From Candidatus Thermoplasmatota archaeon (GTDB lineage: Archaea > Thermoplasmatota > SW-10-69-26 > JACQPN01 > JAIVGT01): 41,510 bases of DNA. The stretch spans positions 1-41,510 of the forward strand of contig DATLFM010000088.1 in assembly GCA_035541015.1 (NCBI GenBank), read 5' to 3'. Both the position numbers and the translations under genes were made by a program. Under the pieces are notes generated by a model, which saw only the letters and a program-made list of their open reading frames with translations, did not search any database and was not told where the DNA came from. Below, piece by piece: positions 13,651 to 31,801 of this stretch. Positions within the stretch are counted from its first letter, which is position 1. Every line of letters starts with the position of its first letter.

Positions 13651-13748
13651 GTTCGTCGGCGCGTAAGGCGCCACCGAGGGACTTGAACACCGTCCGAGCG
13701 GATTCCAAGCCGGGCCCTCCACGGGGCGGGCAAGCCCGCGCCGACGCG

Positions 13749-15860: not shown

Positions 15861-17072
15861 TTAACGGGCGACCGGCGCGACCCTCCGCGGCGGGCGCAGC
15901 GCGTACGTGCGGCCGCGCCAGGCGATCGCGCGCACGCGCCGCGAGCGGTGCAGCACGTACAGCATGAGGAACGGCTGGAAAAGCGAGGTCGCGGCCGAGT
16001 CGCGCTCTGCGTCCAGGAGCGGCCGGTGGCCGGGCAGAAGCTCGCGGAAGAACCGCCAACGCATGCGCGTGCGCAGCGGGTTCGAAAGCACGGGGATCGT
16101 CATGGCAGCGCCGGCAAGCGCAAGCGTCGGGTCCGCGCGCGCAAAGCCGGCGGCCGCTGCCGCGACGCCCAAGACGAACAGGGCCACGGAAGCTCCGTAG
16201 ACGGCGGCGGCAAAGCGCCAAAGGCGCGGCATGCTCTCGCGCGTGAGAGCCGTCTGCCGCACGCACCACTCGAGGCAACCGCCGCGGTCGGTGTCCTCCA
16301 CGTTCACCGAGCAGGCGCGAGGGGCAAACGCGACCAAGAGGCCCAGCCGCTCGACCGCGCGGGTCAAGGCGACGTCCTCGGCGATCGCCTCGCGCATGGC
16401 GTCCTCGACGCGCGCAAGCTCGTACGTCTCTCGCCGCAGCGCCATGCTGCCGCCCCAGCAGAAGCGGTACCGGGAAAGCAGCATGGCGTCGAGGCCCGTG
16501 CCGTTCCACTGCGCTCGAAGGCGCGACCAGAAACCGTGCCGCTCGGAGACGTACCACCGGTACGCGGTGACGGCGCCCACCGCCGGGTCGGAAAGCGGCT
16601 CGACCATGCGGGAGAGCCAGTCGCGCGCGGGCCGGACGTCGGCGTCGACAAAGACGATCGCCCGCGACGCCGGGCGCGCGCGTCGCACGGCCGTCGCCTG
16701 CGCGCGGGCCTTGCCGCTTCGGAACTCCGGCGCGTCGGCGCCGTCGCGGTCCACGACCACAAGCCGCGCGCGGGGAGGCGCGACGCGGCGGAACGCATCG
16801 GCGGAAGGATCGTCGGCCGAATCGACCGCGACGAGAAGCTCGAAGTCGGGGTACGCCTGCGCGGCGATGGCGCGAAGGTTCTCTTCGAATCCCTGCTGCT
16901 CGCCGCGGCAGGGCAGCACCACCGTGACGGGCGGCTTCCATTCCGCAAACGTTTGCGCGAGGGCTTCGCGCTGGAGCCGGCGCGCGACGAGGACCGAGGC
17001 GACCGGGAAGGCCACGCATCCAAGAGCGACGAGGAGCAGCGCCGCAAGCGCGATGGCTTCGAGCGTGGTCAC
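15861..17072 (-). CDS. Membrane glycosyltransferase, GT2/GT21 (ceramide-glucosyltransferase-like)
   Basis: 403 residues. One N-terminal helix (about 4-30) precedes a cytosolic GT-A domain, starting VTVVLPCRGEQQGFEENLRA. The processive-GT residues are present: Asp84 (VAVDSADDPS), the DxD Asp143/Asp145 (FVDADVRP), Asp233 (AEDVALTRAVERLG) and a CVRQTALTR motif at about 270-278 in place of QxxRW. This combination is closer to ceramide glucosyltransferase and HpnI-like GT21 than to cellulose synthase. Two to three C-terminal helices follow. It probably moves a sugar from a nucleotide-sugar to a membrane lipid. The GTG start overlaps the stop of the upstream Asp-box lipoprotein gene by GTGA, so the two are translationally coupled. 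Confidence 0.82.
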   Translation of the reverse strand: MTTLEAIALAALLLVALGCVAFPVASVLVARRLQREALAQTFAEWKPPVTVVLPCRGEQQGFEENLRAIAAQAYPDFELLVAVDSADDPSADAFRRVAPPRARLVVVDRDGADAPEFRSGKARAQATAVRRARPASRAIVFVDADVRPARDWLSRMVEPLSDPAVGAVTAYRWYVSERHGFWSRLRAQWNGTGLDAMLLSRYRFCWGGSMALRRETYELARVEDAMREAIAEDVALTRAVERLGLLVAFAPRACSVNVEDTDRGGCLEWCVRQTALTRESMPRLWRFAAAVYGASVALFVLGVAAAAAGFARADPTLALAGAAMTIPVLSNPLRTRMRWRFFRELLPGHRPLLDAERDSAATSLFQPFLMLYVLHRSRRVRAIAWRGRTYALRPPRRVAPVAR

Positions 17073-18592
17073 GGGGCAAGCACCTTGGCCACGGCCACCT
17101 CGGCCACGCCCGTGCGCGTGTCGCCCCAGCCGGTCCACACGGTCCCGTCGCTTGCCACGCCGATGCCGTTGTAGTCGCCGATGAAGGGCCCAAGCGTCGT
17201 CTGGTGCTTGCCGAGGTCGCCGTCGAACGGAGACGCCGTGAGGCGAAGGTTCGTCCACGTCGCGCCGCCGTCCACGCTTGTTGCAAGGCTCGCGTCGAGG
17301 AGCTTGTCGGCGGGGTCGAAGGCGCGGTCGTAGTACAGGACGTGCACCGCCCCGTCGCGGGCGACGACGATGCGCGGGAAGAACTGGTCGTTGGCCGTTT
17401 CGTCGAGGTTTGCCCGGGCGGGCTCCGACCACGTGCGGCCGCGGTCGTCGCTCCACCGGACGTGGACGTCGCGGTGTCCTTGCGCTTCGTCCGTGTAGGC
17501 GGCGTACAGACGCCCGGTCGCAAGGTCCGCCGCAAGCTCGGCGTGGACCGGCGCGCGCCACGCGGCGTTGCGCGCCGGCCCGTCGCCCTGCGTGCCGCGG
17601 GCGTACGAGAACACGCGGCCCACCTCCTGGAAGCTGCGGCCGTCGTCCACGCTCTCGTAGAGGAACACGTCCTCGACGGCCGGGCGCTGATCCTCGTTGA
17701 GCGGCGACTTCACGACCGTGACGTACACGCGGCCTTCCGCGTCGGCGGCAAGCCCGCCGAAGAACTGCGTCGTGCGCGGCGCGTCGGGCGCAAAGAAGTT
17801 CACAGGCCGGTCCACCTCGCGGCCCTCGCTGCGCGCCGTCACGGCCCACACGGACACCGTGTCGTACTGGCCGGGCACGTCCGTGAACGAGCGGGGCGCC
17901 CGCGTGGAGTCGCCCCACGTCGTCGTCCACCCGTTCCAGACCGAGTGCACCGAGTTCGTGGCGGGGTTCACGACCATTCGCGGGTAGTCGTGGAAGACGA
18001 GCTGCGCGTCGCCCACGGCCATGTGCGCAAACGTGCCCCACGTCTCCCCGCCGTCGCGGCTGACCGCGAGCACGAAGGCCGAGCCGAGGTACGGCCAGCC
18101 CGTCGGAAGCGAGGGCACGTCGCGGGGCGAGACCGCCCACCGGTACGCCTGCAGGGCGTAGTAGAGGACGCCGTTTGCGTCGAACACGAGGATGGGATCG
18201 GTCACGCACGAGTAGGGCACGAGGACCGGCTCGCGGTTGGCGCGGTCGCCGCCTACGTACACGGTCTTCCACGTCCTCCCGCCGTCCTTTGTGACCTGCG
18301 CCACGGACCAGACGCAGTTGCTCGCGCGCGGGTCGAGGTCCTTCGAGGCGACCACGACGTTGTTCGGGTCGAGCGGATTCACGGCAAGGTCGATCTCGGT
18401 CTTGGCGGGCGCCTCGTTCCAGGAGACGCGCGCCGTGCAGGGGTCGGGCCACCGGTCAAGGCCCGAAGCGATCGAGCAGTCGGGGCGAAAACCGAGGGCG
18501 GGCGGGACGGCGTCGTCGGGCGCGCTTGGGGTGGGACCCAGGCATCCGGCGACAAGGGCGGCGGCAAGCAGCACGGGAACGGGCCGTCGCAT
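17069..18592 (-). CDS. Asp-box (BNR) beta-propeller lipoprotein
   Basis: 507 residues. The signal sequence ends in lipobox VAGC (Cys17), predicting lipid anchoring outside the membrane. The rest is a six- to seven-bladed propeller with Asp-box turns TKDGGRTW, SRDGGETW, SVDDGRSF, SDDRGRTW and SVDGGATW, spread through the protein. Sialidase catalytic residues are not apparent, so ligand or glycan binding is more likely than hydrolysis. The frame stays open to 18664 through the inverted repeat, but the ATG at 18592 opens a normal lipoprotein signal and has a weak TATA patch 28 bp upstream. Coupling to a glycosyltransferase suggests a shared envelope-glycan role (inference). Confidence 0.8.
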   Translation of the reverse strand: MRRPVPVLLAAALVAGCLGPTPSAPDDAVPPALGFRPDCSIASGLDRWPDPCTARVSWNEAPAKTEIDLAVNPLDPNNVVVASKDLDPRASNCVWSVAQVTKDGGRTWKTVYVGGDRANREPVLVPYSCVTDPILVFDANGVLYYALQAYRWAVSPRDVPSLPTGWPYLGSAFVLAVSRDGGETWGTFAHMAVGDAQLVFHDYPRMVVNPATNSVHSVWNGWTTTWGDSTRAPRSFTDVPGQYDTVSVWAVTARSEGREVDRPVNFFAPDAPRTTQFFGGLAADAEGRVYVTVVKSPLNEDQRPAVEDVFLYESVDDGRSFQEVGRVFSYARGTQGDGPARNAAWRAPVHAELAADLATGRLYAAYTDEAQGHRDVHVRWSDDRGRTWSEPARANLDETANDQFFPRIVVARDGAVHVLYYDRAFDPADKLLDASLATSVDGGATWTNLRLTASPFDGDLGKHQTTLGPFIGDYNGIGVASDGTVWTGWGDTRTGVAEVAVAKVLAP

Positions 18593-18648
18593 GCGCGCAA
18601 GGAGCGGCGCGCACGGGAAAAAGCCATCGGCGGGTTCGCCCCGGCGGC

Positions 18649-18668
18649 TGCGATGATCATTCATCGCA
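18649..18668. promoter_or_regulatory. 20-bp inverted repeat, copy 2 (operator-like)
   Basis: TGCGATGATCATTCATCGCA is identical to the sequence at 985-1004, in the same orientation. It lies between the divergent propeller-lipoprotein and prefoldin genes. It ends 11 bp before the TATA-like TTAAAAG of the prefoldin gene, comparable with its place behind the M24 peptidase promoter. Confidence 0.6.
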
Positions 18669-18679
18669 GGTGCGCACGC

Positions 18680-18686
18680 TTAAAAG
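18680..18686 (+). promoter_or_regulatory. TATA box of the prefoldin beta gene
   Basis: TTAAAAG is centred about 35 bp before the TTG start at 18718, giving a transcript with a leader of roughly ten bases. Confidence 0.5.
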
Positions 18687-18717
18687 CGGGACGGCGCATT
18701 GCGCCCCGGCGATCCCG

Positions 18718-19074
18718 TTGGCCGCCGACATCCCGCCGCAGATCCGGAACCAGATCGCGCAGCTGCAGCAGATCCAGCAGCAGGCGCAGACGATCGTCTC
18801 GCAGCGCGTCCAGCTCGAGATGCAGGTGAAGGAGATGGAGCGGACGCTCGAGGAGCTTGCCAAGACGCCCGAGGACGCGCCCGTCTACCGGAGCGTTGGC
18901 ACGCTTCTCATCCGCGTGAAGGACCGGCAGACCGTCGCCAAGGACCTCGAGGACTCGAAGGAGACCACCGAGGTGCGCCTGAACTCGCTCAAGCGGCAGG
19001 AGGAGCGGCTCAAGGAGAAGCTCTCGGCCCTGCAGCGCGAGGTCTCCGCGGCGCTTTCCGCCGGGCAGCGATAG
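18718..19074 (+). CDS. pfdB: Prefoldin subunit beta
   Basis: 118 residues, the usual length for archaeal prefoldin beta. Four beta subunits and two alpha subunits form the jellyfish-shaped chaperone that hands unfolded proteins to the thermosome. The N-terminal coiled coil reads IPPQIRNQIAQLQQIQQQAQ. The central hairpin TPEDAPVYRSVGTLLIRVKD forms the beta barrel, and a second coiled coil runs to the C-terminus (LKRQEERLKEKLSALQREVS). I use the TTG at 18718 as start because it places the family opening correctly and no ATG or GTG is available near it; the frame is open much further upstream. The 20-bp inverted repeat shared with the M24 peptidase gene precedes its promoter. Confidence 0.92.
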   Translation: MAADIPPQIRNQIAQLQQIQQQAQTIVSQRVQLEMQVKEMERTLEELAKTPEDAPVYRSVGTLLIRVKDRQTVAKDLEDSKETTEVRLNSLKRQEERLKEKLSALQREVSAALSAGQR

Positions 19075-19167: not shown

Positions 19168-21735
19168 ATGGTCGCCCGGATACCGGTGAGCCCGTTGGGA
19201 GTCCGTTTCGCCGTACCATTCAGCCTTCTTGCTCTTGCGGCGCTTGCGCCCCTCGCGTTTGCCGGGGAGCCGACGCCGATGACCTTCAACGGGTACGAGG
19301 TCGACGGCCGCGTCAACGGCGTCTCCATGGACTGGGGCCGCACGGTCGCCGTCGTCGCCAAGGACGGCTCGGCGCAGGACCTGCAGGACCGCGAGCTCTT
19401 CGCGTTCCGGCTGGAGCCGCCGCAGCAGGCCGGGCTCCTGTGGTCCGAGGAGGACACCTGCCCCACCTGCCTTCTCGTGGAGGGCAAGCGCCTCGTGCGC
19501 TTTGCGCGCGGCAGCGCGCAGAGCGGTCCCGGCGCGCTCCTTGTCGCCGTCGACGAGGAGAACGCCGCGCAGCGCAACTGGTACGTCTATGGATGGCAGG
19601 GGACACAGCCCCTCGCCTCGCGCGCGTCGGCGAGCCCCATCAATGGCATCGCCATCTCGGACGGAACCTCGGTCGGCCACACGGTCGCCGTCGTGAGCGA
19701 CGGCACGGGCACCGCGCCGCCGGGCCGCAACCAGACCTCGATCTACACGTACTCGGGCGGCGCGATCCAGCACGTCACGAACTTCACCGTCTTCAGCCAG
19801 GTCGGCACCGTGGCCGCCGCCCACGCGGTCGACATCTCCTCGAGCGGCCGCTTCGTGGTGGTGGGCGCCACGCGCCACGTGGCCGCTCCCGCGCCCGCCG
19901 GCGCCGTGTACCTCTTCGACGCCAACGCGGCCGGCGTGGGGCCCAACAACCCGGCGCCGGCGCTTCTGTCGCGCGAGACGCACAACCAGTGGGGTAACAT
20001 GACAAGCCCCATCCGTCACGTCGCGATCGCAGGCGACGGGCGGTACTTCGTGGCGGCCGACGAGGCAAGCCCCGGCCGCGTGTATCTCTGCACGAACCGC
20101 CACGCCATCAACGAGCCGTGGGTGCGGTGCGACGCGCAGTTCTCGGTCGAAGGCCGCATCACGGCGCTTGCCATCTCGTTCCACGGCAACAACTTCGCCG
20201 TCGGCACGGACGCCGGCGACGTGTACACGTGGCGCATCAACCGCGACGACCGCAGCAACGCGCAGAACGCCAACGCCGGCGACGTGGGCTCGAGCGCCAC
20301 GCCGCTTGGCCCCTGGCGCGGCGCGCAGGCCGGCTCGCGCGCGGCCATCTCCTCGCTTGCGTACTCGTTCAACGGCCAGTGGCTCGTCGCCGGCGGAACG
20401 CACCTCTACGGCTTCGTGAACTCGACGATCGATCCCGTCTGGCAGCTGCCGCTTGTGGTTCCGGGAACCGGCGGCGCGGTCGTGGCCTCGCCGGTCCTTG
20501 GCGTGGCCATCTCGCACGACGGGCAGCGGATCGTGGCCGTGGCCGACCAGCCCGCCTCCGGCGGCACGCCTGCCAAGGGCCGGGTCTTCGCCTTCCAGCA
20601 ATCCTTCGGCGTCGATCTCTCGGCCGACCCCGCCTCGCGCACGACGCAGCCGGGCTCGGTGGCGCGGTACCTCGTCACGGTCCGCAACACGGGCTCCAAC
20701 GCGGACAACTTCCGCCTGGAGGTGATCCCGCCCACGCAGCCGCGCGCCTGGTCGGCCACGCTCAACGCAACGACCGTGGCCCTCCCGCCGGGCCGCGACG
20801 TGCGCTTGTTCCTGAACGTGACGGTCCCCGACGACGTGCTGCCGGAGACGTACATCACGACGGTGCGCGCCGAGAGCCTCGGCTCCGTCGCCGCCGGCGG
20901 AAGCTCGGTCGCCTCGAGCTCGGTCGCCGTGCCGACCGTCGTCGGCCGCGTGTACGGGGTCGAGGTGACGCCGCGCACGCAGGAGACGGTCGTGAACCCC
21001 GGCGAGCGGCGCGACGTCCGACTCACGCTCCGCAACACGGGCAACGGCGAGGACACCATCCGGTTCGCGGTGACCGCGGTGGGCCGGTCGCCCGGCACGG
21101 AATGGGCCACGCGCCTTGAGCCCGACGGGCTCGTCACGATCCCCGCCTTTGGCACGCGCGAGGTCCTGCTCGAGGTGCGCTCGATCCGGGCCGCCGACGG
21201 CGACTTCGTCGACCTCTCGTTTGTCGCCGAAGCCAGCCGGGGCGAGGTGGGCATCCGCGACACGGCGAAGGTTCTCGTGCGCGTGAACCCGCGCTTTGGC
21301 GGCTCGGTCGAGATCGAGCGAACGGATCTTCTGCTGGCGCCCGGCGAGGCGGCCGTCGTGAACCTCACGGTCGAGAACCACGGCAACACGCGGGACGTTT
21401 TCCGGATCGAGAACCGCACCGAGCCGCGCAATCCGGTCGGCTGGCGCCTGTCGCTCTCGTCGCAGACGGTCGTCCTCGATCGTCTGGGCGACAAGGGCGT
21501 CGTGCGCCTGCGCGTGACGGCGCCCTCGGCCGCGCAGGCAGGCGACGAGATCACGATCTTCGTCGACGTGTTCTCGCAGGGCGAGGAGGGCCGCCGCGTG
21601 GACCAGAAGAGCCTCGTGGCCCGCGTGGGCGAGCGCGGCGGCGGGTTCCTTGGCCTGCCCGGTTTCGAGCCGCTGCTGCTTGTCGTGGGCGCCTTGGGCG
21701 CCGTCGTCGTCCTCCGTCGCGGGGGGAGAGGCTAG
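19168..21735 (+). CDS. Exported beta-propeller protein with three NEW3/CARDB-type domains and C-terminal anchor
   Basis: 855 residues. A signal peptide (VRFAVPFSLLALAALAPLAF) leads into a WD40/PQQ-like propeller (about 40-475) with recurring blades such as HVAIAGDGRYFVAADEASPG and VAISHDGQRIVAVADQPASG. Three Ig-like NEW3/CARDB-type domains begin near residues 479, 594 and 710, each with a VTVRNTGSNADNFRLEV-like core. The C-terminus LPGFEPLLLVVGALGAVVVL plus RRGGRG is a PGF-CTERM-like anchor. Sequons (NVT, NLT) suggest glycosylation. The GTG at 19186 fits the promoter spacing better than the ATG used here. The next gene starts 1 nt after the stop and has the same layout, so they form an operon. 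The propeller ligand is unknown. Confidence 0.8.
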   Translation: MVARIPVSPLGVRFAVPFSLLALAALAPLAFAGEPTPMTFNGYEVDGRVNGVSMDWGRTVAVVAKDGSAQDLQDRELFAFRLEPPQQAGLLWSEEDTCPTCLLVEGKRLVRFARGSAQSGPGALLVAVDEENAAQRNWYVYGWQGTQPLASRASASPINGIAISDGTSVGHTVAVVSDGTGTAPPGRNQTSIYTYSGGAIQHVTNFTVFSQVGTVAAAHAVDISSSGRFVVVGATRHVAAPAPAGAVYLFDANAAGVGPNNPAPALLSRETHNQWGNMTSPIRHVAIAGDGRYFVAADEASPGRVYLCTNRHAINEPWVRCDAQFSVEGRITALAISFHGNNFAVGTDAGDVYTWRINRDDRSNAQNANAGDVGSSATPLGPWRGAQAGSRAAISSLAYSFNGQWLVAGGTHLYGFVNSTIDPVWQLPLVVPGTGGAVVASPVLGVAISHDGQRIVAVADQPASGGTPAKGRVFAFQQSFGVDLSADPASRTTQPGSVARYLVTVRNTGSNADNFRLEVIPPTQPRAWSATLNATTVALPPGRDVRLFLNVTVPDDVLPETYITTVRAESLGSVAAGGSSVASSSVAVPTVVGRVYGVEVTPRTQETVVNPGERRDVRLTLRNTGNGEDTIRFAVTAVGRSPGTEWATRLEPDGLVTIPAFGTREVLLEVRSIRAADGDFVDLSFVAEASRGEVGIRDTAKVLVRVNPRFGGSVEIERTDLLLAPGEAAVVNLTVENHGNTRDVFRIENRTEPRNPVGWRLSLSSQTVVLDRLGDKGVVRLRVTAPSAAQAGDEITIFVDVFSQGEEGRRVDQKSLVARVGERGGGFLGLPGFEPLLLVVGALGAVVVLRRGGRG

Positions 21736-21736
21736 C

Positions 21737-24160
21737 GTGCGTGCCGCACGCCTGGGCCTGTTGATCGCCCTCGCGATCCTGCTCACGGCGCCCGCCGCCG
21801 TAGGCTCCCCTCCGCCGGCGCAGCCGTGGAGCCCCGCGCCCGTCGAGCATCCCGGCGGGCCCCAGGGCGTTCCGCCGCCGCTGCGAGGCGGTCCGCCGCT
21901 TGCGCTTGCGTTTGCCTCCGCCGGCAGCGTGCTTGCGCTTGGAACCGCCGACGCGCGGCCGGGCGGGCCCGTTCCGCAGCCGGACCCTTCCGACCGCGAC
22001 CTTTTCCTCTTCGACTTTGTCTCGGGGTACCTTCGCAGCCGCGCAGACCACGAGGACCCCGTGCGCGAGGGGACGAGCGCCGTGGCGCTTGCGGCCGACG
22101 GATCGCGTCTTCTGGCAGGGTCCCCGTTCGTGGACGCGCCAAACGTAGCCTACTTTGCGACCTCGAGCCTGGAGAGCCCGCTGTGGACCGAGACCCTCTC
22201 GCAGCCCGTTCGCGCCGTGGCCCTTTCGGCCGACGGCCGTCGCGCCGCCGTCGCGGCCGCCGGAGACACGGGCAACAGCGCCTTGCGCTTCTACGGCGGC
22301 GGAGACGCTAGGACCCTCGCCTGGTCGGCCACGTTTGCCGGACGCGTGAACGACATCGACCTTTCCACCGCCGGCACGCACCTTGCCGCCGGCGGCCGCG
22401 CGCTCTCGGGCGACCTCGTCGTGGGCGAGGTTCACCTGTACGCCACCACGACCGCCACCGCGTCGACGCCCATCGTGCGCCACACGATCCAGGAGGCCGA
22501 CAGCGCGATCACGGACGTCGACCTTTCCGACGACGGCGCCTGGCTTGCCGCGGGAACGGACGCGGGCAGGCTGCTCGTGATCTCCGAGGCGTCGCGCGCG
22601 GTCGCCTTCAACCTCCGCCTCTCCACGCTTGCGCCCGGCGCCGTGCCGCAGCCGGTGGTGCGCGTGGCGATCTCCCACGACGGCGCGCGGCTGGCCGCCA
22701 TCGATGCCCTGCGCCTCTACGTCTTCGAGCGGCAGGCTGGAAGCTACGCCTTCCGCTGGAGCGCCGACCTCGACGGCGGAGCAACCGACCTTGGCGCAAC
22801 GCCCGACCTCGAGTACCTGGCCGTGGCGGGGAGACCGCTGCGCGTCTTCCACGTGTCCTCCGGCACGCCGTTGTTCGACCTCGACGTCGAGGGCGGCCTC
22901 GTGCGGATGGCCCGCGCGGTCGATTCGGGCGAGGTGCGGCTCGCAGCCGCCTCCGACGGGGCGGTGCACGCGCATCGGCTCGTCTTCGACCACCGGATCG
23001 CCGCCCCGCCGGCGCCTGCCGCGCCCATCGTGCCGGGCCGTGCCGCGACGCTCACGTTCAACGTCACGAACGAAGGCTCGGCCGCCGGGCGCGTCCTGCT
23101 CACGGTCATGGAGGGGCACGAGCTCTCCCCGCGCGTCGAGACGCCCCTCGTGCTCGCGCTTCCGGGCCAGAGCATTCCGGTGAACGTGACGCTCTCCCCA
23201 AGCCCAGGCACCGTCGCGCGGACGTACCGGCTGAACGTGACGGCGACCTCGCTGGCCGGGGATGGCACGGTCCGTTCGGCGGAGGTCGAGGTGCGGGTGG
23301 CCTCGGCGCCTTCCGTGCGCGTGTCGATCTCGACGAACGAATCGGGCATCCAGCCGGGCACCGAGGCGTACTTCCTCCTCAACGCGACAAACGTGGGCAA
23401 CGTCCCCGTGGACCTCACGCTTGGACTCTCGCAGCGCCCCACGCAAGGCGGCGCCTGGCCGCTTGACCTCTCCTCGTCTGTCGCCAGCGCCAACCCGGGC
23501 GCGACCACCACGGCCGTGCTCACGGTCCGCGCGCCCGGGTCGGCCGCCAACGGCTCGGAGAATCTCGTGACGGTTCGCTTGCAAGGCGACGGCGTGGACG
23601 AGTCGGTGTCGCTGCGCGTGGTCGTGAACCCGCACTTTGGCGTGGCGCTCACGGTGCAGCCTCCAAGCCGCACGGCGTCCATCGGCCGGCCGGCCGCCTA
23701 CACGCTGCTTGTCACGAACAACGGCTCGCTTGCCAACACGTTCTCGCTCCACGCGTGCCCGCTTCCCCCGAACTACGTGGGCGCCCACCCGCCGTGCTTT
23801 GGCAACGACACGACGCCGGAGCTCCTTCGCGGCTGGTCGATCGCCTACGACCGCGTGCCCTTCTACCTCGCGCGCGGCCAGACGCGCGAGCTTTCCATCG
23901 TCATCCGCCCGCCCGAGACGGCCACGCCAGGCGACCGGCTGAGCCTGCAAGTGGACGCCATGGCCACGAACCTGTCGCACGAGTCCCGGGCGTTTGTCGT
24001 CGTGAGCACGAACGTCGTCGAACCGCCGCCCACCGAGGAAGAGGAGCGGCGGCGGCGCGAGACGATTCCTGGGCCGGCCGCGGTCGAGACGCTCGCGCCG
24101 CTGGCCGCGGCGGCCGTCGTCCTGTTGGCGCTTCGCGGACGATCCGCGCGACGTCCGTGA
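21737..24160 (+). CDS. Exported beta-propeller protein with NEW3-type repeats, paralogue of its neighbour
   Basis: 807 residues from a GTG that lies 1 nt past the preceding stop. The signal peptide VRAARLGLLIALAILLTAPA is followed by a propeller (about 55-410; blades such as VALSADGRRAAVAAAGDTGN and VAISHDGARLAAIDALRLYV). Three Ig-like NEW3-type domains begin near residues 418, 524 and 632; the last has a Cys pair. A charged segment EEEERRRRE and a final hydrophobic helix with Arg tail (AAVVLLALRGRSARRP) form the anchor, with PGP in place of PGF. Overall order matches the upstream gene but sequence identity looks modest, so the pair is an old duplication. They may form a heteromeric surface complex (inference). 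Confidence 0.78.
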   Translation: MRAARLGLLIALAILLTAPAAVGSPPPAQPWSPAPVEHPGGPQGVPPPLRGGPPLALAFASAGSVLALGTADARPGGPVPQPDPSDRDLFLFDFVSGYLRSRADHEDPVREGTSAVALAADGSRLLAGSPFVDAPNVAYFATSSLESPLWTETLSQPVRAVALSADGRRAAVAAAGDTGNSALRFYGGGDARTLAWSATFAGRVNDIDLSTAGTHLAAGGRALSGDLVVGEVHLYATTTATASTPIVRHTIQEADSAITDVDLSDDGAWLAAGTDAGRLLVISEASRAVAFNLRLSTLAPGAVPQPVVRVAISHDGARLAAIDALRLYVFERQAGSYAFRWSADLDGGATDLGATPDLEYLAVAGRPLRVFHVSSGTPLFDLDVEGGLVRMARAVDSGEVRLAAASDGAVHAHRLVFDHRIAAPPAPAAPIVPGRAATLTFNVTNEGSAAGRVLLTVMEGHELSPRVETPLVLALPGQSIPVNVTLSPSPGTVARTYRLNVTATSLAGDGTVRSAEVEVRVASAPSVRVSISTNESGIQPGTEAYFLLNATNVGNVPVDLTLGLSQRPTQGGAWPLDLSSSVASANPGATTTAVLTVRAPGSAANGSENLVTVRLQGDGVDESVSLRVVVNPHFGVALTVQPPSRTASIGRPAAYTLLVTNNGSLANTFSLHACPLPPNYVGAHPPCFGNDTTPELLRGWSIAYDRVPFYLARGQTRELSIVIRPPETATPGDRLSLQVDAMATNLSHESRAFVVVSTNVVEPPPTEEEERRRRETIPGPAAVETLAPLAAAAVVLLALRGRSARRP

Positions 24161-24234
24161 GATCGCCGCGACGTGCTTTTGGCGCGTCGCGTTTTCGTGC
24201 GCGGCGGCCGGGATTTGCGAGACAATCCAGCATG

Positions 24235-24243
24235 CTTAAATAG
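24235..24243 (+). promoter_or_regulatory. TATA box of the 1844-residue surface protein gene
   Basis: CTTAAATAG is centred 13 bp before the GTG at 24252 and 40-49 bp before the in-frame GTGs at 24279 and 24288. The expected transcription start near 24265 favours one of the later codons. Confidence 0.55.
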
Positions 24244-24251
24244 CGTTCCGG

Positions 24252-27200
24252 GTGTCCGCAGACCGGACAATTCTGCAGGTGGTTGCCGTGGTCTCAGGTT
24301 CGCGAAGGCTCGTCGTTGCGCTGGTGCTTGCCGCCTTGGCGATTCCCGGATTCGAGCCCGTGTTGGTGGGTCAGGTCTCGGCGCGGGACACCCCCACGGA
24401 GCAGGCCATCGCGTCCAACCTCCTGCCCCCCACGATCGCCTGGCAGAACTGGACGACGAAGACGCCGCTGCATCTCATCCGGGACCCGAACCCCCCGTCG
24501 GGCACCTCGCCCGACACTCCCGGCGACCCAGGGTTTCCGCTACTCATGAACTCGAACCCCCTGCCCGGAGGCGACGTCCCCAACGCCGCCCCCCGGCCCA
24601 TCGTCATGGGCGCGGAGGTGCAGCAGTCCGAGACGGTGTACGCTCTCCTAATGCCGGTCGTCCACCACACGTTCACCATCCAGACCGTATCCTTCACATT
24701 CCACCTCACGTCCAGCACGAGCAGCGCCTGCCAGGCCCTCAACGCACCCGATCGCGACGAGCAGTCGCACGACATTGAGCTCTTCGCGGAACTCGTGGGC
24801 ATCTTCGCGACGGACGCCGACGCCGTTGCGACGCAGCAGGACGTACAGTTGGCCAGCAACTCCATTCGGAAATGCGGCGCCGCGCTCGATCCTACGACCC
24901 AGCGGTTTGCGACGGGAACGATTCCCCTGCGAACCCCCACCGGGGGGCCCATCGTGGTTCCCGAGGGCATCCACCTCGTCCTTCGCCTGTGGGTGCGCAG
25001 CCTGAGCGGCCTGCAGGGCCAGTGGACCCTCTGGCACGGCACGACGGCGGCCTCCACGCGCTTGGACGTGGATTCCCGCGACGCGGTCCAAGCCGCAAGC
25101 TGGGTGACCGGCCGCGACAACGCGCAGAGCACGACCTTTGGGGTTCCGCCGCCGGGCGCCAATACGCAGCGGATCATCGGCTACTTCGCGGTCAAGTCCG
25201 CGTGGGGAGGCTACGACAACCCCAGCGCGTCCCCCCGCGACAGTCCCTTCACGGACCGGCGGTCGGTTTGGCAGGCCTCCCTCCGCGCGCCCAACGCGAC
25301 CGTCGTGCATCTTGGCCAGCTCATGCCGGCCTGTTCGGGCCCCGCCACGCCCTTCCAGCCGTGCCTCGCCGGGTACCAGTCGTCGGGCCGCGAATCCATT
25401 CGCGTGTTCACGTGGCCCGACGACCGCGTGTGGGAATTTGGCCCCAACGTCGCCGTGGGCGAGTATCGCCTCGAGGTCGCCGGCTCCATGGGCGGCGCCA
25501 GCAACCAGGGAGACCGGCCTCTGGGCGACGCTGCCGGCGGCGTCGCCGTATTCCGCATTGGCGGCTTTGGAGTGCAGCTTGCGCCCTTCCGGCAGGAAGG
25601 CAAGGGCGAGTCGGACGTGGGCGGGCGCATCGCCAACATCATGCGGCCGGGCCTCACGCGCACCTACCTTTTGGAGCTTCGCAACACGGGAAGCGTGCCA
25701 GACCAGATTCGTCTGCAGTCGGAGGTTCTTACCCCCAGCGGCGCCAACTGGCAGGTCCGGTTCACGGGCGCCAACGTCACGGGCGACGCGCGCGCCATCC
25801 TCGCGCCTGGCACCTCGACGCTCGTGCAGGCCACCGTCCTTCCGCCGCCCGGGGCCTCGGCGGGAAGCTCGAGCCTCATCCGCGTGACGGCCACGAGCGA
25901 GGGCGACGCCGCCGCGCGGGCCCAGATCGAGCTTCTGACCACGGTCGTCGCCGATGCGCCCATCCGGGGCTTCGAGATCTTCGTCTTGGACCAGAGGCTC
26001 AAGAACGTCACCAAGGGCGGGGCCGTCGAGTTCAACGTGAGCGTCTGGAACCACGGCAACGACGTCGACTCGTTCAACCTCACGCGCCGCGACCAGGACA
26101 CCGCCCACGTCCTTGCCAACTTCTCCACGCTTCGCCTCGAGGACGTGCCGCCTGGCGCGCTTGCGAGCCTGCGCATTCGCGTTTCCGCGCACATCAACGC
26201 CACCACGGGCGAGCGCCTGGACGTCGCCTTCCGGGCCGCAAGCCAGGGCGACGCCGCGCAGTTCCGCGACTGCTTTGCGCAGAATTGCGCCTCGGCCGTC
26301 GTGCAGGAGCTGCGCGACTTCGAGCTTCGGGTCATGCGCGTGGGAAGCGACCTCGAGGACGCCCTTACCACGATCACCTCGGGCATCCTCACCCGCGTGC
26401 TTCGTCAGGGACGAGACGACCCGAACATTTGCCCCAACCAGCTCAACCGCGAGGGCCAACGCACCGATTGCAGCGGTGGGCCCAACCAGGAGAACCTCAC
26501 CACGGACCCAGTGGACTGGCGCTACTCGACCGTGGCTTTCTACCGCATCGGCGTCGTCAACCGGGGTGACCAGCCCGAGCGGTTCCGCGCCCGTATCGCC
26601 TCGGCCTCGTCGGAGATCTTTCCCGAGGAGCGGCAGGCCGAGCGGACGCGCTGCGGTTCCGGCCAGGGAGACCCGTTCCGCGTGAACGGCGACGAGACCT
26701 ACCGTCTCGTCTGGTTCCCGGTCTACCCGCGCGCCTCCGGCAGCGACGAGGCGCGTACGAACAACATCACGGCCGACGCCAACGGCCTCATCACCGTGCA
26801 GCCGGGCAAGGAGACCTTCTTCTACCTGCGCGTCTGGCCGGCGTGGAACGACCATCCGTTGCACCTTCCCAGCGGGTGGCAGGGTCTTTGCAGCGCGGTC
26901 GCCAACGTCCGCGTGGACGTAGAGCGCGTGGAGGAAGACACCCGTCAGCCCACCGGCGTCGCCGTCCTGCAGGGTCCCAAGTCCGTGTCCACGCAGACGT
27001 TTTCGTACCGGCGCACGTACTCGACCGAAGCGACCGAGCTTGCGGACCGCTCGAACCGGGTGCTCGTCGAGCTTGGCGAGCAGGTGCTCATCGACGGGCA
27101 TTCGCGCCGCGCCAACTTCACGGCCGACGTTCCGCAGTTCTGCCCGCCCGTATCCGCGACCTCCCGCCTGTTCTGCAAGTACAAGTCGCCCGGACAGTTC

Positions 27201-29786
27201 TCAGACTGGCAGATCCACGCGACGGGGTTCACCCACGCGGCCGGGCCCTTCGAGCTTCGCGTGATTCCCGAGGGCGAGACGCTCGCGCAGCTTCGCGCCA
27301 AGGGCTGGGACTTCACGCTGGCGGACGCCTACCACAATTTCCTCACGAGCCCGCCCACGCTCTTTGAGCACGGCCAGCCCGTCAACAATTCGCGGGCCTT
27401 CCGCTGCTCGAACGGAACCGAGCTTCGCTGCGGCACGGGCGATCCGGTGAACACGACGGGCGCCGCGTTCGTCGTGAACCTGCGCGTCCACGTCCCGGCC
27501 AACGCCACGATCGACGACTACGCGCGTCTGCGCATCGAGGCGACGATCGCCGGCCGCGGCTCGAGCCAGACGATCCACACCGTCGCGGCGCAGGAGTTCC
27601 GCGTGGGCACCTCCGTCATCACGCCGACGATCCAGGGTCCGGCGCACATCCTCGACGTGCATCCGGGCGCGCTCGTCGCCTTCCCGCTCAACGTGAGCAA
27701 CGAGGGCTCGAGCACGGACACCTACCTTCTCAACGTGTCGCGCGGCCAGCAGCTGCCCGACTGGCTCACCGTGAGCTTTGCGCCGTCCCGCTTCCAGGTT
27801 GGCGCGCGCGGCAACGTGACGACCGGCGTCTTCATGCAGGTGGGCGCCAACGCCCCCACGTCGGGCTCGCAGGCCACGCAAGTGGTCGACGTGCAGGTGT
27901 CGTCGCAGAACAACGACAGCACGCAGCGCGAGTGCTTCCGCGCGCCGCCCGTCGCGCAGAACTACTTCAACGTGAACTGCGTGAGTCTCACGTTGAACGT
28001 CGTCCGTCCTCGGACGACGACCGTGGGCGTGAACACGGGCCTGCGCGTCACGGCCGACGCGTCCACGCGCTCCATCGCGCCGGGCGACGCGACGTTCTTC
28101 ACGCTCAACGTGACGAACCCGTCGAACGACAACCTCAACTTCCAGCTCGAGACGATGACGGGCGCTCCGGTGGGCTGGCGCGTCCTGTTCGGCGACTGCG
28201 CCACGTCGTGCGCCATCGGCCCGCAGGCCACGCGGCAGGTGACCCTCTCGGTCGATGCGCCGCTTGAGGCTCGCGAGCCGAGCCTCGTTCCGTTTGTCAT
28301 CCGCGCTCGGCAGGTCGGTCCCGTGCCCGACGCCTCGAACTTCGGCCAGGCCGTCGTGAACGTGACCGTCGTCGGGCGCGCCGCGACGCTCCTCGAGGCC
28401 ATCGACGGCACGCGCGTGGTGGACCGCAACTCGGCCACGACGTTCACGCTGCGGCTCACGAACCTCGGCACGGCGCCGGACAACTTCACGTTCGACCCGC
28501 CGCGCTTTGTCAACAGCTCGCAGCGCGACACGTGGGGCGCGCAGTTCCTGCGACTGGCCGACCGCGACACGCAGCGGTTCGTCCCGCAGTCCACGTTCCT
28601 CTTGGCCCCGCGCGAGCGCACGGACGTGTACCTCAACGTCACGGCGCCGCTGTCCGCGCCCAACGGCACGGTCGCCGAGCTTGAGGTGACGGTTCGCCCA
28701 AGCTCGCTGCAGACGGGCGCGCAGGTGCGTCTGGTCGCCGTCGTGCGCGAGTACGGCATCGAGCTTCGCATCGCCAACTCGACGGCGCACGCCGTCCCCG
28801 GCGACATCGTGTCGTTCCGCGTGAACGTCACGAACACGGGAAACGCGCCGGACACGATCCTCTTCGACGTGAACCTCGGCGGAGTGGCCAACCTGTGGAA
28901 CTCGACGCGCGAGACGACCTCGGTCACGCTGCCCCCGGGCGGCGCCACGGACGTCCGCTTCAACGTGCTCGTGCCACGCCTTCGGATCCTCTCGGGCGCG
29001 CCGGTCGTGTTCCTGGCCCAGTCCCAAGACGCCCGCGCCATCGGACGCACGGACGTGGACCGGTCGGCCACCGTGCAGGTGAACCTCCTGTCGTACGTGG
29101 CGCTCTCGATCGACCCCGACAACAAAGGGCTCGACTTCTGGCAGCTTGCCGTGGACCGCAACCGCAACCCGCAGGACGGCTTCGAGGTCTTCACGGACCC
29201 GCATCCGTTCCCCTACCGCGCCATCGGCGTCTACCGCATCGACGGGGACGACGACGCCCGGGTGGACCACCTCATCGACCTCGACGGCGACGGCCTGCCG
29301 GACCGCTACTGGGACCCCGACGACAACAACCTGGCGCACCTTGCCTACTGGCCGGACATCGACCGCGACGGCGTCCTTGAGGTCCTCCTCGACACCACGG
29401 GCGACCGGCTCGTCGACACGCTGTACAACCCGACGACGGGGCGCCTGCACCGGGCCTACCAGATGGACATCCACCGGGACGACACGCCCGAGTTCCTGAT
29501 CGACCGCAACGGCGACGGGATCTTCGACACCTACTACGACCCGGCCATCGGCACGGCGGGCCTCGTCACCCGCGCCGAGCGTCTTTCGGGGCAGCCCAAC
29601 GTGTACGCCGTCGACACGACCGGCGGCGGCACACCCACCCGGCACGTGAACGTGCAGACGGGGGAGATCACGGACGCGCGCGTGGCGGGCCTGGGCTCGT
29701 TCTTCGCGCAGTACGCGTACTTCTTCGTGCTGTTCGCGGCGGTCGTGGCGCTGGGCGCGCTCGTGGCCTTCCGGCGCCGGCGGTAG
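24252..29786 (+). CDS. Giant anchored surface protein with Ig-like repeats and Ca-binding-type tandem repeats
   Basis: 1844 residues from the first GTG; 1835 or 1832 if the promoter-favoured GTGs at 24279/24288 are used. A signal sequence (LVVALVLAALAIPGFEPVLV) is followed by an N-terminal beta-rich region (about 45-470) and then many NEW3/CARDB-like Ig domains to about residue 1615, each with a core like FRVNVTNTGNAPDTILFDVN. Cys pairs are frequent between 680 and 1250. At about 1674, 1712 and 1749 three tandem units of 37-38 residues start LIDLDGDGLPDRYWDP, LLDTTGDRLVDTLYNP and LIDRNGDGIFDTYYDP, resembling calcium-binding DxDxDG loops. A final helix with tail AFRRRR anchors it. Many sequons suggest heavy glycosylation. 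S-layer, stalk or adhesin are possible roles. Confidence 0.82.
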   Translation: MSADRTILQVVAVVSGSRRLVVALVLAALAIPGFEPVLVGQVSARDTPTEQAIASNLLPPTIAWQNWTTKTPLHLIRDPNPPSGTSPDTPGDPGFPLLMNSNPLPGGDVPNAAPRPIVMGAEVQQSETVYALLMPVVHHTFTIQTVSFTFHLTSSTSSACQALNAPDRDEQSHDIELFAELVGIFATDADAVATQQDVQLASNSIRKCGAALDPTTQRFATGTIPLRTPTGGPIVVPEGIHLVLRLWVRSLSGLQGQWTLWHGTTAASTRLDVDSRDAVQAASWVTGRDNAQSTTFGVPPPGANTQRIIGYFAVKSAWGGYDNPSASPRDSPFTDRRSVWQASLRAPNATVVHLGQLMPACSGPATPFQPCLAGYQSSGRESIRVFTWPDDRVWEFGPNVAVGEYRLEVAGSMGGASNQGDRPLGDAAGGVAVFRIGGFGVQLAPFRQEGKGESDVGGRIANIMRPGLTRTYLLELRNTGSVPDQIRLQSEVLTPSGANWQVRFTGANVTGDARAILAPGTSTLVQATVLPPPGASAGSSSLIRVTATSEGDAAARAQIELLTTVVADAPIRGFEIFVLDQRLKNVTKGGAVEFNVSVWNHGNDVDSFNLTRRDQDTAHVLANFSTLRLEDVPPGALASLRIRVSAHINATTGERLDVAFRAASQGDAAQFRDCFAQNCASAVVQELRDFELRVMRVGSDLEDALTTITSGILTRVLRQGRDDPNICPNQLNREGQRTDCSGGPNQENLTTDPVDWRYSTVAFYRIGVVNRGDQPERFRARIASASSEIFPEERQAERTRCGSGQGDPFRVNGDETYRLVWFPVYPRASGSDEARTNNITADANGLITVQPGKETFFYLRVWPAWNDHPLHLPSGWQGLCSAVANVRVDVERVEEDTRQPTGVAVLQGPKSVSTQTFSYRRTYSTEATELADRSNRVLVELGEQVLIDGHSRRANFTADVPQFCPPVSATSRLFCKYKSPGQFSDWQIHATGFTHAAGPFELRVIPEGETLAQLRAKGWDFTLADAYHNFLTSPPTLFEHGQPVNNSRAFRCSNGTELRCGTGDPVNTTGAAFVVNLRVHVPANATIDDYARLRIEATIAGRGSSQTIHTVAAQEFRVGTSVITPTIQGPAHILDVHPGALVAFPLNVSNEGSSTDTYLLNVSRGQQLPDWLTVSFAPSRFQVGARGNVTTGVFMQVGANAPTSGSQATQVVDVQVSSQNNDSTQRECFRAPPVAQNYFNVNCVSLTLNVVRPRTTTVGVNTGLRVTADASTRSIAPGDATFFTLNVTNPSNDNLNFQLETMTGAPVGWRVLFGDCATSCAIGPQATRQVTLSVDAPLEAREPSLVPFVIRARQVGPVPDASNFGQAVVNVTVVGRAATLLEAIDGTRVVDRNSATTFTLRLTNLGTAPDNFTFDPPRFVNSSQRDTWGAQFLRLADRDTQRFVPQSTFLLAPRERTDVYLNVTAPLSAPNGTVAELEVTVRPSSLQTGAQVRLVAVVREYGIELRIANSTAHAVPGDIVSFRVNVTNTGNAPDTILFDVNLGGVANLWNSTRETTSVTLPPGGATDVRFNVLVPRLRILSGAPVVFLAQSQDARAIGRTDVDRSATVQVNLLSYVALSIDPDNKGLDFWQLAVDRNRNPQDGFEVFTDPHPFPYRAIGVYRIDGDDDARVDHLIDLDGDGLPDRYWDPDDNNLAHLAYWPDIDRDGVLEVLLDTTGDRLVDTLYNPTTGRLHRAYQMDIHRDDTPEFLIDRNGDGIFDTYYDPAIGTAGLVTRAERLSGQPNVYAVDTTGGGTPTRHVNVQTGEITDARVAGLGSFFAQYAYFFVLFAAVVALGALVAFRRRR
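24253..24269. promoter_or_regulatory. Inverted repeat at the predicted transcription start
   Basis: TGTCCG and CGGACA flank a 5-bp spacer, covering the predicted start site near 24265. Repressor binding there would block initiation; alternatively it is chance in GC-rich DNA. Confidence 0.35.
29271..29606 (+). repeat. Three tandem 37-38-residue Ca-loop-like units inside the giant surface protein
   Basis: Units start at 29271, 29385 and 29496, that is 38 and 37 codons apart. Shared positions are L-[IL]-D-x-x-G-D-x-x-x-D-x-x-[YW]-x-P, then in the first two units D-I-[DH]-R-D and an E before the next unit. The third unit is shorter at its end. The Asp spacing suits calcium binding. DNA copies have diverged, so this is an old protein-level repeat. 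Confidence 0.6.
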
Positions 29787-29796
29787 GGCCGCTCCC

Positions 29797-29820
29797 GTTC
29801 CTGCGCAATTGCGCAGGAAC
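29797..29820. promoter_or_regulatory. 24-bp perfect palindrome between the surface protein and nuclease genes
   Basis: The left half GTTCCTGCGCAA (29797-29808) is exactly complementary to the right half, with no spacer. It begins 10 bp past the stop of the giant surface protein gene and ends 24 bp before the TATA-like patch of the nuclease gene. No T tract follows, so an operator or recombination/protein-binding site is at least as likely as a terminator. Confidence 0.55.
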
Positions 29821-29874
29821 CGCTTCCGCGTCCGGAGCGGCACGTTTTTCCATCGGTTGAGCGTGCTCTTGCGC

Positions 29875-31107
29875 GTGCGCATCCGGTTCCTGGGCGGCGC
29901 CGGCGAGATCGGCCGCCTCGGCATGGTCGTGGAGGACGTGGGGGTGAGCGTCCTGTTCGACTACGGCGTCGCTCCCGCCGACCCCCCCTTGTACCCGTTG
30001 CCCGCGCCCGCGCTCGACGCGGCCTTCCTCTCGCACGCGCATCTCGACCACAGCGGGATGCTGCCGGCGCTCGCCGCGGCGGCCGTACCCATCTACCAGA
30101 CGCCGCCGACGGCCTCCATGGCCGATCTCCTCCTGCGGGACGCGCTCAAGATCGCCCGCGTCGAGGGATACCACCTTCCCTGGAGCAAGGACGACGCCGA
30201 GCTTGTGCCCCAGTCGACCGTGCTGTCCAACTACGGCGAGGTGCACGACGTGGGCGCCCTCGAGGTCGAGCTTGCAAGCGCCGGACATATCCCCGGTTCC
30301 ACGATGTTCGAGGTCCGGGGCGGGTCGGCCACGCTCCTGTTCACCGGCGACATGCACGTTGCCGACTCGGGCCTTGTCGCAGGAGCCAAGCCCCGACCCT
30401 GCGACGTGCTTGCGATCGAAGGCACGTATGCGGACCGGGAACATCCCGACCGCAAGGTGGTCGAGCGCGATCTCGTCTCCGCCATCGAGGCCGTCCGCGC
30501 ACGCGGGGGCGTCGCCATCCTGCCGGCGTTTGCCGTGGGGCGCACGCAGGAGGTTCTCACGATCCTCCAGGGCAAGGGGTTCAAGGTCTGGCTCGACGGC
30601 ATGGGGAAGTCCGTGACAAAGCTCATGCTCCAGGAGCCGCGGTACCTGCGCGACCCGCGCAAGCTTGCGCGCGCCTTCGACGAGGCGACCCTCGTGTCCG
30701 GCCACCACGTGCGAAGGCACGTGCTCGCCTCGGCCGACGTCGTGGTGACCACAAGCGGAATGCTCGAAGGCGGGCCCGTTCTTTGGTACATGGAGAAGCT
30801 CAAGGACGATCCGCGAAGCGCCGTGTTCTTCACCGGATTCCAGGTACCCGGCACGGGAGGTCGGCAGCTTCTGGACACGCGGACCCTCACGCTGGGATCG
30901 GCGGTCGTGCCCGTCGCGATGGAGCTTCGCAAGTTCGACCTCTCCGCCCACGCGGGGGCAAGCGAGCTTGCCGCTTTCATCCGCGGCTGCAATCCGAAGG
31001 CGGTCGTCGTGTACCACTCGACCACGCGGGAGGCCCTGGCGCGCGCCATGGGCGACGAGTTCCGGTTCGTGCTCCCGGAGACGGGCGTGCCCTTCGACGT
31101 CGCCTAG
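29875..31107 (+). CDS. Beta-CASP metallo-beta-lactamase nuclease
   Basis: 410 residues, cytosolic, starting MRIRFLGGAGEIGRLGMVVE. It is an MBL-fold RNA-processing nuclease of the CPSF73/RNase J superfamily without the KH domains of archaeal CPSF1. The zinc site is visible: SHAHLDHSG (His54, His56, Asp58, His59), His in AGHIPGS and Asp in FTGDMHVADSG. The beta-CASP insert has AIEGTYADREHP (motif A) and PAFAVGRTQEVL (motif B). Late in the protein HAGASELAAF and VVVYHSTTREAL supply the last His residues. The GTG start at 29875 has a T-rich TATA patch 28 bp upstream; the frame is open to 29809. A role in RNA 3'-end processing or decay is expected. Confidence 0.88.
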   Translation: MRIRFLGGAGEIGRLGMVVEDVGVSVLFDYGVAPADPPLYPLPAPALDAAFLSHAHLDHSGMLPALAAAAVPIYQTPPTASMADLLLRDALKIARVEGYHLPWSKDDAELVPQSTVLSNYGEVHDVGALEVELASAGHIPGSTMFEVRGGSATLLFTGDMHVADSGLVAGAKPRPCDVLAIEGTYADREHPDRKVVERDLVSAIEAVRARGGVAILPAFAVGRTQEVLTILQGKGFKVWLDGMGKSVTKLMLQEPRYLRDPRKLARAFDEATLVSGHHVRRHVLASADVVVTTSGMLEGGPVLWYMEKLKDDPRSAVFFTGFQVPGTGGRQLLDTRTLTLGSAVVPVAMELRKFDLSAHAGASELAAFIRGCNPKAVVVYHSTTREALARAMGDEFRFVLPETGVPFDVA

Positions 31108-31112
31108 GAATC

Positions 31113-31118
31113 CTTAAG
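31113..31118 (+). promoter_or_regulatory. TATA box of the ferredoxin gene
   Basis: CTTAAG is centred 34 bp before the ATG at 31150; it is the only AT-rich patch in the 42-bp gap. Confidence 0.45.
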
Positions 31119-31149
31119 ACACGGAGCCGGGTTCCGGCTCACGGTTTCC

Positions 31150-31422
31150 ATGACCCGGATCGTCTGCGAACCCTGCGTCAACGTCAAATCCGGCGAATGC
31201 GTCGACGTCTGCCCCGTCGACTGCTTCTACGACTCCGGCAACCAGCTTTTCATCAACCCGAACGAGTGCATCGACTGCGGCGCGTGCGAATCGGTGTGCC
31301 CCGTGACGGCGATCTTCCCGGAGGAGGACGTTCCGGAGCAGTGGAAGGAGTACAGCACGAAGAACCGCGCCTGGTCCGACCAGGGCGGCTTCCCCAACGC
31401 CAAGGAGACGATGAAGAAGTAG
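31150..31422 (+). CDS. Seven-iron (3Fe-4S/4Fe-4S) type ferredoxin
   Basis: A 90-residue cytosolic electron carrier. The first Cys set is Cys6, Cys9, Cys17, Cys21 and Cys25 (CEPC, GEC, VCPVDC), the pattern of FdxA-type ferredoxins in which Cys9 is usually not a ligand of the 3Fe-4S cluster. The second set is Cys40, Cys43, Cys46 and Cys50 (CIDCGACESVCP), binding the 4Fe-4S cluster. The tail of about 38 residues is charged (EQWKEYSTKNRAWSDQ), as in other archaeal and FdxA proteins. Cluster type is read from the Cys spacing and needs proof. The partner oxidoreductase is not in the window. Confidence 0.93.
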   Translation: MTRIVCEPCVNVKSGECVDVCPVDCFYDSGNQLFINPNECIDCGACESVCPVTAIFPEEDVPEQWKEYSTKNRAWSDQGGFPNAKETMKK

Positions 31423-31504
31423 CGCGGCCGCGGAGAAACCGGCGACTTTTCGGCTGGCGAAGTTCCGGACGGCTTAACGTTACGTTTCGCGCTTCCGCGC
31501 GTGG

Positions 31505-31621
31505 ATGGGATGCACGGTCGAGGCTACGTACGTAGCCGAAGGCAACGGCGTCCGACGCCTGCAGCGCATCTTCCTTCGCGGCGCGCTCGCGTCGGAGAGC
31601 AGCGTTTGCTTCGACGCATAG
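31505..31621 (+). CDS. Small ORF, 38 residues, possible microprotein
   Basis: The ORF starts MGCTVEATYVAEGNGVRRLQ and ends SSVCFDA, with two Cys and no hydrophobic helix. A TATA-like CTTAAC is centred about 30 bp before the ATG, the spacing seen for real genes in this window. The stop lies 6 bp from the stop of the convergent zinc-ribbon gene, a typical packing here. Against it, the DNA contains a 16-bp palindrome (31522-31537) and GGCGTC-C-GACGCC (31543-31555), so a structured RNA is an alternative. No family is recognised. Confidence 0.4.
   Translation: MGCTVEATYVAEGNGVRRLQRIFLRGALASESSVCFDA
31522..31537. promoter_or_regulatory. 16-bp perfect palindrome
   Basis: GGCTACGTACGTAGCC is fully self-complementary and lies inside the 38-codon ORF, 12-27 bp past its ATG. 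It may be an operator overlapping a leaderless gene start or part of an RNA stem. Confidence 0.4.
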
Positions 31622-31627
31622 GACGCG

Positions 31628-31801
31628 CTAGGCCGAAGCGTTCGCAAACGTGCGCGTGCCGCAGCGCGGGCACCCGAGGACGAGGATGTGCTCGCGCTCG
31701 CGCAGCGTGTCGAGCGGGTGGTGGCCGCACGTGGGGCAGCCCTTCTCGCGGCCGCGGGGGGCGTTCGGGGCGCTCTCCTTGGTGCGTTCCCGCGCGCTCA
31801 T
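31628..31801 (-). CDS. Small zinc-ribbon protein (57 residues)
   Basis: A 57-residue protein starting MSARERTKESAPNAPRGREK. It carries two CxxC knuckles, CPTC (Cys22, Cys25) and CPRC (Cys44, Cys47), 18 residues apart with HH just after the first, which is a classic zinc ribbon. The N-terminal 20 residues are charged and probably disordered. The ATG at 31801 is supported by a GCTTAAAGC TATA element centred 26 bp upstream; a longer open frame to 32638 is antisense to the methyltransferase gene and is discounted. Such small ribbons bind nucleic acid or act as subunits of larger complexes; the partner is unknown. It diverges from the pcm gene. Confidence 0.7.
   Translation of the reverse strand: MSARERTKESAPNAPRGREKGCPTCGHHPLDTLREREHILVLGCPRCGTRTFANASA

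Follow-up and report, generated by a model that had tools for sequence, protein, structure and literature searches.

Sequence comparison supports the view that three adjacent genes for large exported proteins, here termed A, B and C, constitute a conserved gene module for the cell envelope in one class of Thermoplasmatota, presumably SW-10-69-26 of GTDB. The genes lie in a window of 41,510 nt, the whole stretch of DNA that was analysed, from a Candidatus Thermoplasmatota archaeon (contig DATLFM010000088.1; assembly GCA_035541015.1) whose genome is 2.2 Mb in size and 96% complete. Their products may act as one envelope module, forming a surface scaffold or adhesion complex that is made constitutively and stabilised by Ca2+, a reading on which our judgement is evenly poised. 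We know of no account of the cell envelope of most Thermoplasmatota. The trio keeps its order in each of the seven class genomes, locked in place by informational genes on either side, and as such ranks as a strong candidate core component of the envelope that offers structural work a defined target.

An earlier, sequence-only reading of the locus had proposed an undescribed surface system. As a conserved gene module this proposal stands, given the class-wide gene order and the pairs of A-like and C-like genes outside the class, and the findings are compatible with an S-layer, an appendage or a receptor; the component families (choice-of-anchor T, archaeosortase-type tails, WD40 and NEW3) are already known. 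No account of the trio, or of an integrin α-like layout in archaea, was found in the open literature, subscription journals and preprints lying largely outside the scope of the search.

Gene content and conserved order of the locus

The features of the locus are listed in Table 1. The open reading frames bear out the initial description of three neighbouring genes for exported proteins of 855, 807 and 1844 residues, with a gap of 1 bp between A and B; all three lie on the same strand, and B and C are separated by 91 bp. The frames were picked by codon-usage scoring and all three have HMM homologues in each of the seven class genomes, which shows them to be genuine genes rather than frames open by chance in DNA with 70% GC. 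The codon-usage gene caller was a simple, purpose-written one and its start codons are approximate. Orthologues of A, B and C share 18–37% identity. Pfam and NCBIfam models identify NEW3/FixG_C/VWA7-type Ig domains in all three proteins; A and B additionally match models of WD40-like repeats. N-glycosylation sequons exceed the composition expectation across the trio (8 versus 4.7, 9 versus 3.2 and 28 versus 12.7). DNA repeats within the genes were considered as a separate feature and discarded, being the ordinary similarity of Ig and propeller repeats. A strong GC hairpin followed by TTTT in the gap between B and C (24167–24191) is a possible terminator or attenuator; terminator-like sites in the region are below the chance level. 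A minus-strand cluster a short way upstream of the trio (12232–15164 and 17069–18664) encodes exported propeller proteins of the BNR/Asp-box type together with a CARDB protein.

Table 1. Features of the A–B–C locus and its immediate neighbours (positions in the window).
Feature	Position	Strand	Basis
Prefoldin β-type subunit, conserved upstream neighbour	18670..19074	+	Pfam Prefoldin_2, E=4e-23
Gene A, 855 aa: signal peptide, propeller, three Ig-like (NEW3) domains, PGF-type tail	19168..21735	+	Seven class orthologues; NF041740, 82 bits
A, WD40-like propeller, residues about 35–478	19270..20601	+	WD40 match, alignment, model (low confidence before about residue 282)
A, three Ig-like domains, residues ~480–823	20605..21636	+	Model, pLDDT mostly 80–95
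A, PGF-CTERM-like tail LPGFEPLLLVVGALGAVVVLRRGGRG	21655..21732	+	Sequence reading
Gene B, 807 aa from GTG, paralogue of A	21737..24160	+	B clade 100/99; model pLDDT 83.1
B, WD40-type propeller, residues 54–422, ~31–32 strands	21896..23002	+	Profile search, model, Foldseek
B, three Ig-like domains, residues ~430–762	23024..24022	+	Model
B, anchor tail IPGP...RGRSARRP	24062..24157	+	Sequence reading
Gene C, 1844 aa: exported giant, Ig-like repeats, DxDxDG segment, C-terminal TM	24252..29786	+	True start perhaps slightly downstream
C, Ig-like repeat array, residues ~1135–1600, best conserved part of C	27654..29051	+	Pfam, homologue comparison
C, DxDxDG-rich (Ca2+-type) juxtamembrane segment	29040..29693	+	Motif count; FG-GAP/EF-hand matches in some orthologues
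C, TM helix with Arg tail, YAYFFV...RRRR (most orthologues: YWY)	29694..29783	+	Sequence reading
β-CASP metallo-β-lactamase nuclease, conserved downstream neighbour, non-surface	29863..31107	+	Pfam/NCBIfam, synteny

The order prefoldin β–A–B–C–β-CASP is found in all seven genomes that make up the class sample, the loci of two of them (G001 and G006) being split across contigs but concordant. Prefoldin lies upstream of A in G002–G006 and was not recovered in G001, where the contig starts inside A. The run in G002 reads proteasome α, SBDS, Rrp4, Rrp41, Rrp42, L37Ae, RpoP, Pcc1-like, prefoldin β, A, B, C and β-CASP, and G003–G006 retain this order, whole or truncated; cytoplasmic neighbours other than prefoldin and β-CASP were named by eye. 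At the window locus the genes upstream of prefoldin are unlike those in the relatives. Neighbouring genes of this order overlap by 4 bp at the closest in the class and lie a few hundred base pairs apart at the widest, and C is present in all seven genomes at its whole length save where a contig ends within it.

Among the 390 genomes of a phylum-wide sample, strong matches to C outside the class were obtained in G128 and G062, and a search with the C tail added G012; the remaining genomes match C through generic Ig repeats only. The tail is found at full strength only in these ten genomes (the seven of the class and the three outside it) minus G001, because the contig of the latter ends inside C. 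An A-like gene, a C-like gene and β-CASP are consecutive in G062, two small genes separate the A-like from the C-like gene in G128, and in G012 a C-like gene, cut by the contig end, is followed by an A-like gene. Neither prefoldin nor β-CASP was seen beside the pair in two of these three genomes. The sequence-only reading had named beforehand, as an observation that would count against it, a failure of the trio to co-occur in relatives; the order is kept in seven of seven class genomes, and A-like and C-like genes occur together in three more. Since two of the outside pairs lie away from the class neighbourhood, the exosome cluster alone does not account for the A–C linkage; A and C are thus the core pair, with B an addition in this class. 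Gene spacing, from which joint assembly had originally been argued, does not by itself establish it, and genes embedded among housekeeping genes can keep their order even if their products do not interact.

β-CASP and prefoldin were considered as functional partners and rejected: outside the class, G062 excepted, the β-CASP gene does not stand beside the trio and has other neighbours (it does so at one of 80 loci, which is a class locus, in a survey in which the caller missed the β-CASP gene itself at about a dozen loci), and the two are treated as neighbourhood only. The matches of the β-CASP neighbour are from Thermoplasmatota throughout. The small genes between A and C in G128 are an MNT/HEPN-like pair (L239:11907-12639). 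In the C gene of G006 an in-frame TAA precedes the DxDxDG tail (L088:6253-6375), which is either a real break or an assembly error. JAJPHT010000022.1 (L106; G004:C24) is titled Proteobacteria, a name that is wrong given the archaeal exosome cluster and trio on this contig.

In a maximum-likelihood tree, B forms a single clade (100/99), with A and the homologues from outside the class on the other side; A is not resolved as a clade. The pairs G000–G001, G003–G004 and G005–G006 recur in both the A and the B subtrees, and by this repetition of the same species pairs both copies have apparently been retained since the class ancestor. The simplest reading of these sequences is that A and B arose by one duplication before the class radiated, both copies being kept.

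Domain architecture and comparison with integrin α chains

The assignment of a propeller and three Ig-like domains to A and B agrees with their Pfam and NCBIfam domains, and the B model displays both parts. This model was built with an 18-sequence alignment (pLDDT 83, head ~90); that of A was made from A alone and has a good stalk and a poor head (pLDDT 67). When B was compared with the PDB using Foldseek, the first 27 matches were integrin α ectodomains, with E down to 2.3e-21, ~990 columns, 10–13% identity and a TM of about 0.3. Integrin α was also top-ranked for the A model. From the low TM and large rmsd, the domain order and fold match integrin α and the relative angles do not. B follows the head-to-stalk order of integrin α, namely a propeller, three Ig-like domains and a single C-terminal TM segment.

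Profile searches with A/B match the head to WD40 proteins (5yzv, E=1e-14); for the stalk, they point to a likeness with a bacterial sialidase, in its Ig domain. ODA16 provides the best single-domain fit of the B head (5mzh, rmsd 3.5 Å). The propeller of ODA16 is eight-bladed. This fit and the number of strands in the head suggest eight blades, and the modelled head of B is of the WD40 type and probably eight-bladed. A search of a viral structure library yielded generic propeller and Ig matches only.

Compared with integrin α ectodomains (7nxd, 3fcs), A and B share the propeller head, three Ig-like domains, C-terminal TM segment and short tail. They differ in a WD40-type, probably eight-bladed head without FG-GAP/Cage motifs or DxDxDG loops, in place of the seven-bladed integrin propeller with its Ca2+ loops (there is no FG-GAP match in Pfam, and no strict DxDxDG in A or B of the window), in NEW3-type Ig domains and in a PG-type archaeal anchor tail that lacks the cytoplasmic GFFKR motif and reads RRGGRG, RGRSARRP and similar. 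Moreover, integrin α requires a β partner with a vWA/βI domain, whereas in C, the candidate partner, and in its orthologues no vWA domain was detected with Pfam. Integrin homology of A and B is rejected by sequence on these three counts (the WD40 head, the missing FG-GAP and the missing vWA partner), and the likeness is one of architecture only, an analogy and not integrin membership. Known bacterial integrin-type propellers have no recognisable thigh and calf domains (PMC3192720); A and B, in contrast, possess a stalk, but their propeller comes from another family, WD40 and integrin propellers forming separate superclusters (PMC8023676). An integrin α layout assembled in archaea from different domain families bears on the debate over where integrins came from, as it helps to tell architecture and ancestry apart.

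The choice-of-anchor T model NF041740 (cut-off 70 bits) is exceeded by A (82 bits) and C (79 bits), with B below it (32 bits). It matches the Ig-like region of all 18 A/B homologues, but spans only ~259 aa of Ig repeats and includes no propeller, trio or synteny. C itself had been described as almost wholly Ig-like, which does not hold: there is no Pfam Ig match at residues ~60–450 and ~690–1110, and the last ~240 residues are rich in DxDxDG (three motifs versus 0.15 in shuffles, P=0.001). When the C profile was run against the PDB, no match reached significance (best 4lk4, E=0.26). In another Thermoplasmatota genome, an Ig-repeat match (G032:C14, ~26,800–31,700; L025) falls inside an open frame that runs on for 25,796 residues without interruption, which, if it encodes one protein, would be among the largest prokaryotic proteins.

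Membrane anchors and archaeosortase

All three proteins carry a C-terminal anchor, as had been noted together with their Arg tails, but the anchors are of two kinds: PGF/PGP tripartite tails in A and B and, in C, a plain TM helix without a PG motif, preceded by an aromatic YWY-type motif and the DxDxDG segment. The A terminus, with LPGFEP, a hydrophobic stretch and RRGGRG, shows the full PGF, hydrophobic and basic arrangement; B has only the IPGP variant. Two homologues outside the class end in IPGFE, a hydrophobic stretch and RRKR or RRR. In several orthologues PGF is replaced by PGP or PG-less variants, and halophilic orthologues are without PGF. The PGF-CTERM HMM TIGR04126 did not call the tails of A and B even at E<=1; strict membership of this family was accordingly rejected and the tails are termed PGF-CTERM-like.

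The host genome encodes one ArtA (120 bits versus a cut-off of 75), followed by pssD (phosphatidylserine decarboxylase) and then pssA (CDP-alcohol phosphatidyltransferase). ArtA also exceeds the cut-off in the other class genomes, without exception, and in G062, G128 and G012; as it occurs in 230 of the 390 phylum genomes, its presence is permissive and not specific. In Haloferax, PssA and PssD act in ArtA-dependent processing and lipid anchoring (PMC7157517). A and B resemble the ArtA/PGF-CTERM substrates of H. volcanii in their tripartite tails and the artA-pssD-pssA cluster of the genome, and differ from them in escaping TIGR04126 and in the PGP or PG-less orthologues. The tails together with the cluster make it likely that A and B are lipid-anchored by archaeosortase.

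A small exported protein without a Pfam match at 8992–9636 of the window has the tail TPGFAP...RRRR and is another candidate ArtA substrate. Contig C35 of the host genome encodes a protein of ~4,500 residues (L090:6849-19901 and L091:1-492) that ends in LPGFEP...RRRKP, the same tail as A; its neighbours are further giant exported proteins and, judged by eye, a MoxR/DUF58-like operon. In G128, the contig that carries the A-like and C-like pair also has an ArtA gene (G128:C122:27973-28704), which follows the C-like gene downstream at a distance of ~2.6 kb.

Possible roles of the trio

If A, B and C act together, ArtA, along with PssA/PssD, would process A and B and anchor them to lipid, C would be held in the membrane by its own helix, and Ca2+ would stiffen C through the DxDxDG segment. 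The two different A/B heads might bind C, surface glycans or both, head–C binding being a guess. A and B would then work like integrin α chains architecturally, with a WD40 propeller and NEW3 Ig domains as the independent starting material for the layout. A bolder form of this proposal, which we regard as doubtful, is an undescribed, class-defining archaeal complex in which two lipid-anchored integrin α-like stalks join a giant Ig-repeat partner that depends on Ca2+. Expressed from the exosome/prefoldin superoperon, such a complex would be the prokaryotic equivalent, arrived at by convergence, of adhesion receptors of the integrin type.

Alternatively, the trio could be the S-layer or main protein coat of the class, with C and/or A/B as abundant lattice proteins anchored like the haloarchaeal S-layer glycoprotein; we hold this to be possible, at a low probability. 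The proteins are large, anchored, glycosylation-rich and Ig-bearing, and the trio is universal in the class. The 'putative S-layer' model NF033506 is weakly matched by eight of the 18 A/B members (best 2e-11), and Foldseek matches B to a Methanosarcina surface-layer protein (1l0q, E=9e-15) in which an archaeal surface propeller is likewise followed by an Ig-like domain. This protein, however, has a YVTN propeller, PKD domains, another tail and no A–B–C locus; three unlike proteins with two anchor types fit a lattice poorly, no known S-layer family was matched in Pfam or NCBIfam, and low sequence conservation is compatible with a coat but not specific to it. That A and B serve at the surface as receptors or adhesins for a ligand from outside the cell, C being a spacer or co-receptor in its own right, seems rather unlikely to us. 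An integrin α-like head on a stalk would suit such a role, as would two divergent heads arising by duplication and retained since the class ancestor, but the tails are too short for signalling and no ligand pocket was identified. Retention across the class within the housekeeping cluster favours constitutive production, and it speaks more for a structural or broadly adhesive function than for a niche receptor.

It is very improbable that the trio serves folding or assembly outside the cytoplasm as a BamB-like propeller scaffold: the prefoldin neighbour and a weak BamB match (2.8e-5) would speak for it, yet only one of 18 A/B members gives that match, other propellers match better than PQQ-type BamB and C has no chaperone feature. 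We also think it unlikely that A, B and C are independent 'choice-of-anchor' surface proteins co-travelling in a conserved operon. Across the phylum, numerous anchored proteins unrelated to the trio do show matches to NF041740-type Ig domains, and the neighbours are unrelated cytoplasmic proteins; against this, and in line with one envelope module, A-like and C-like genes are adjacent again in G062, G128 and G012, two of them away from prefoldin and β-CASP.
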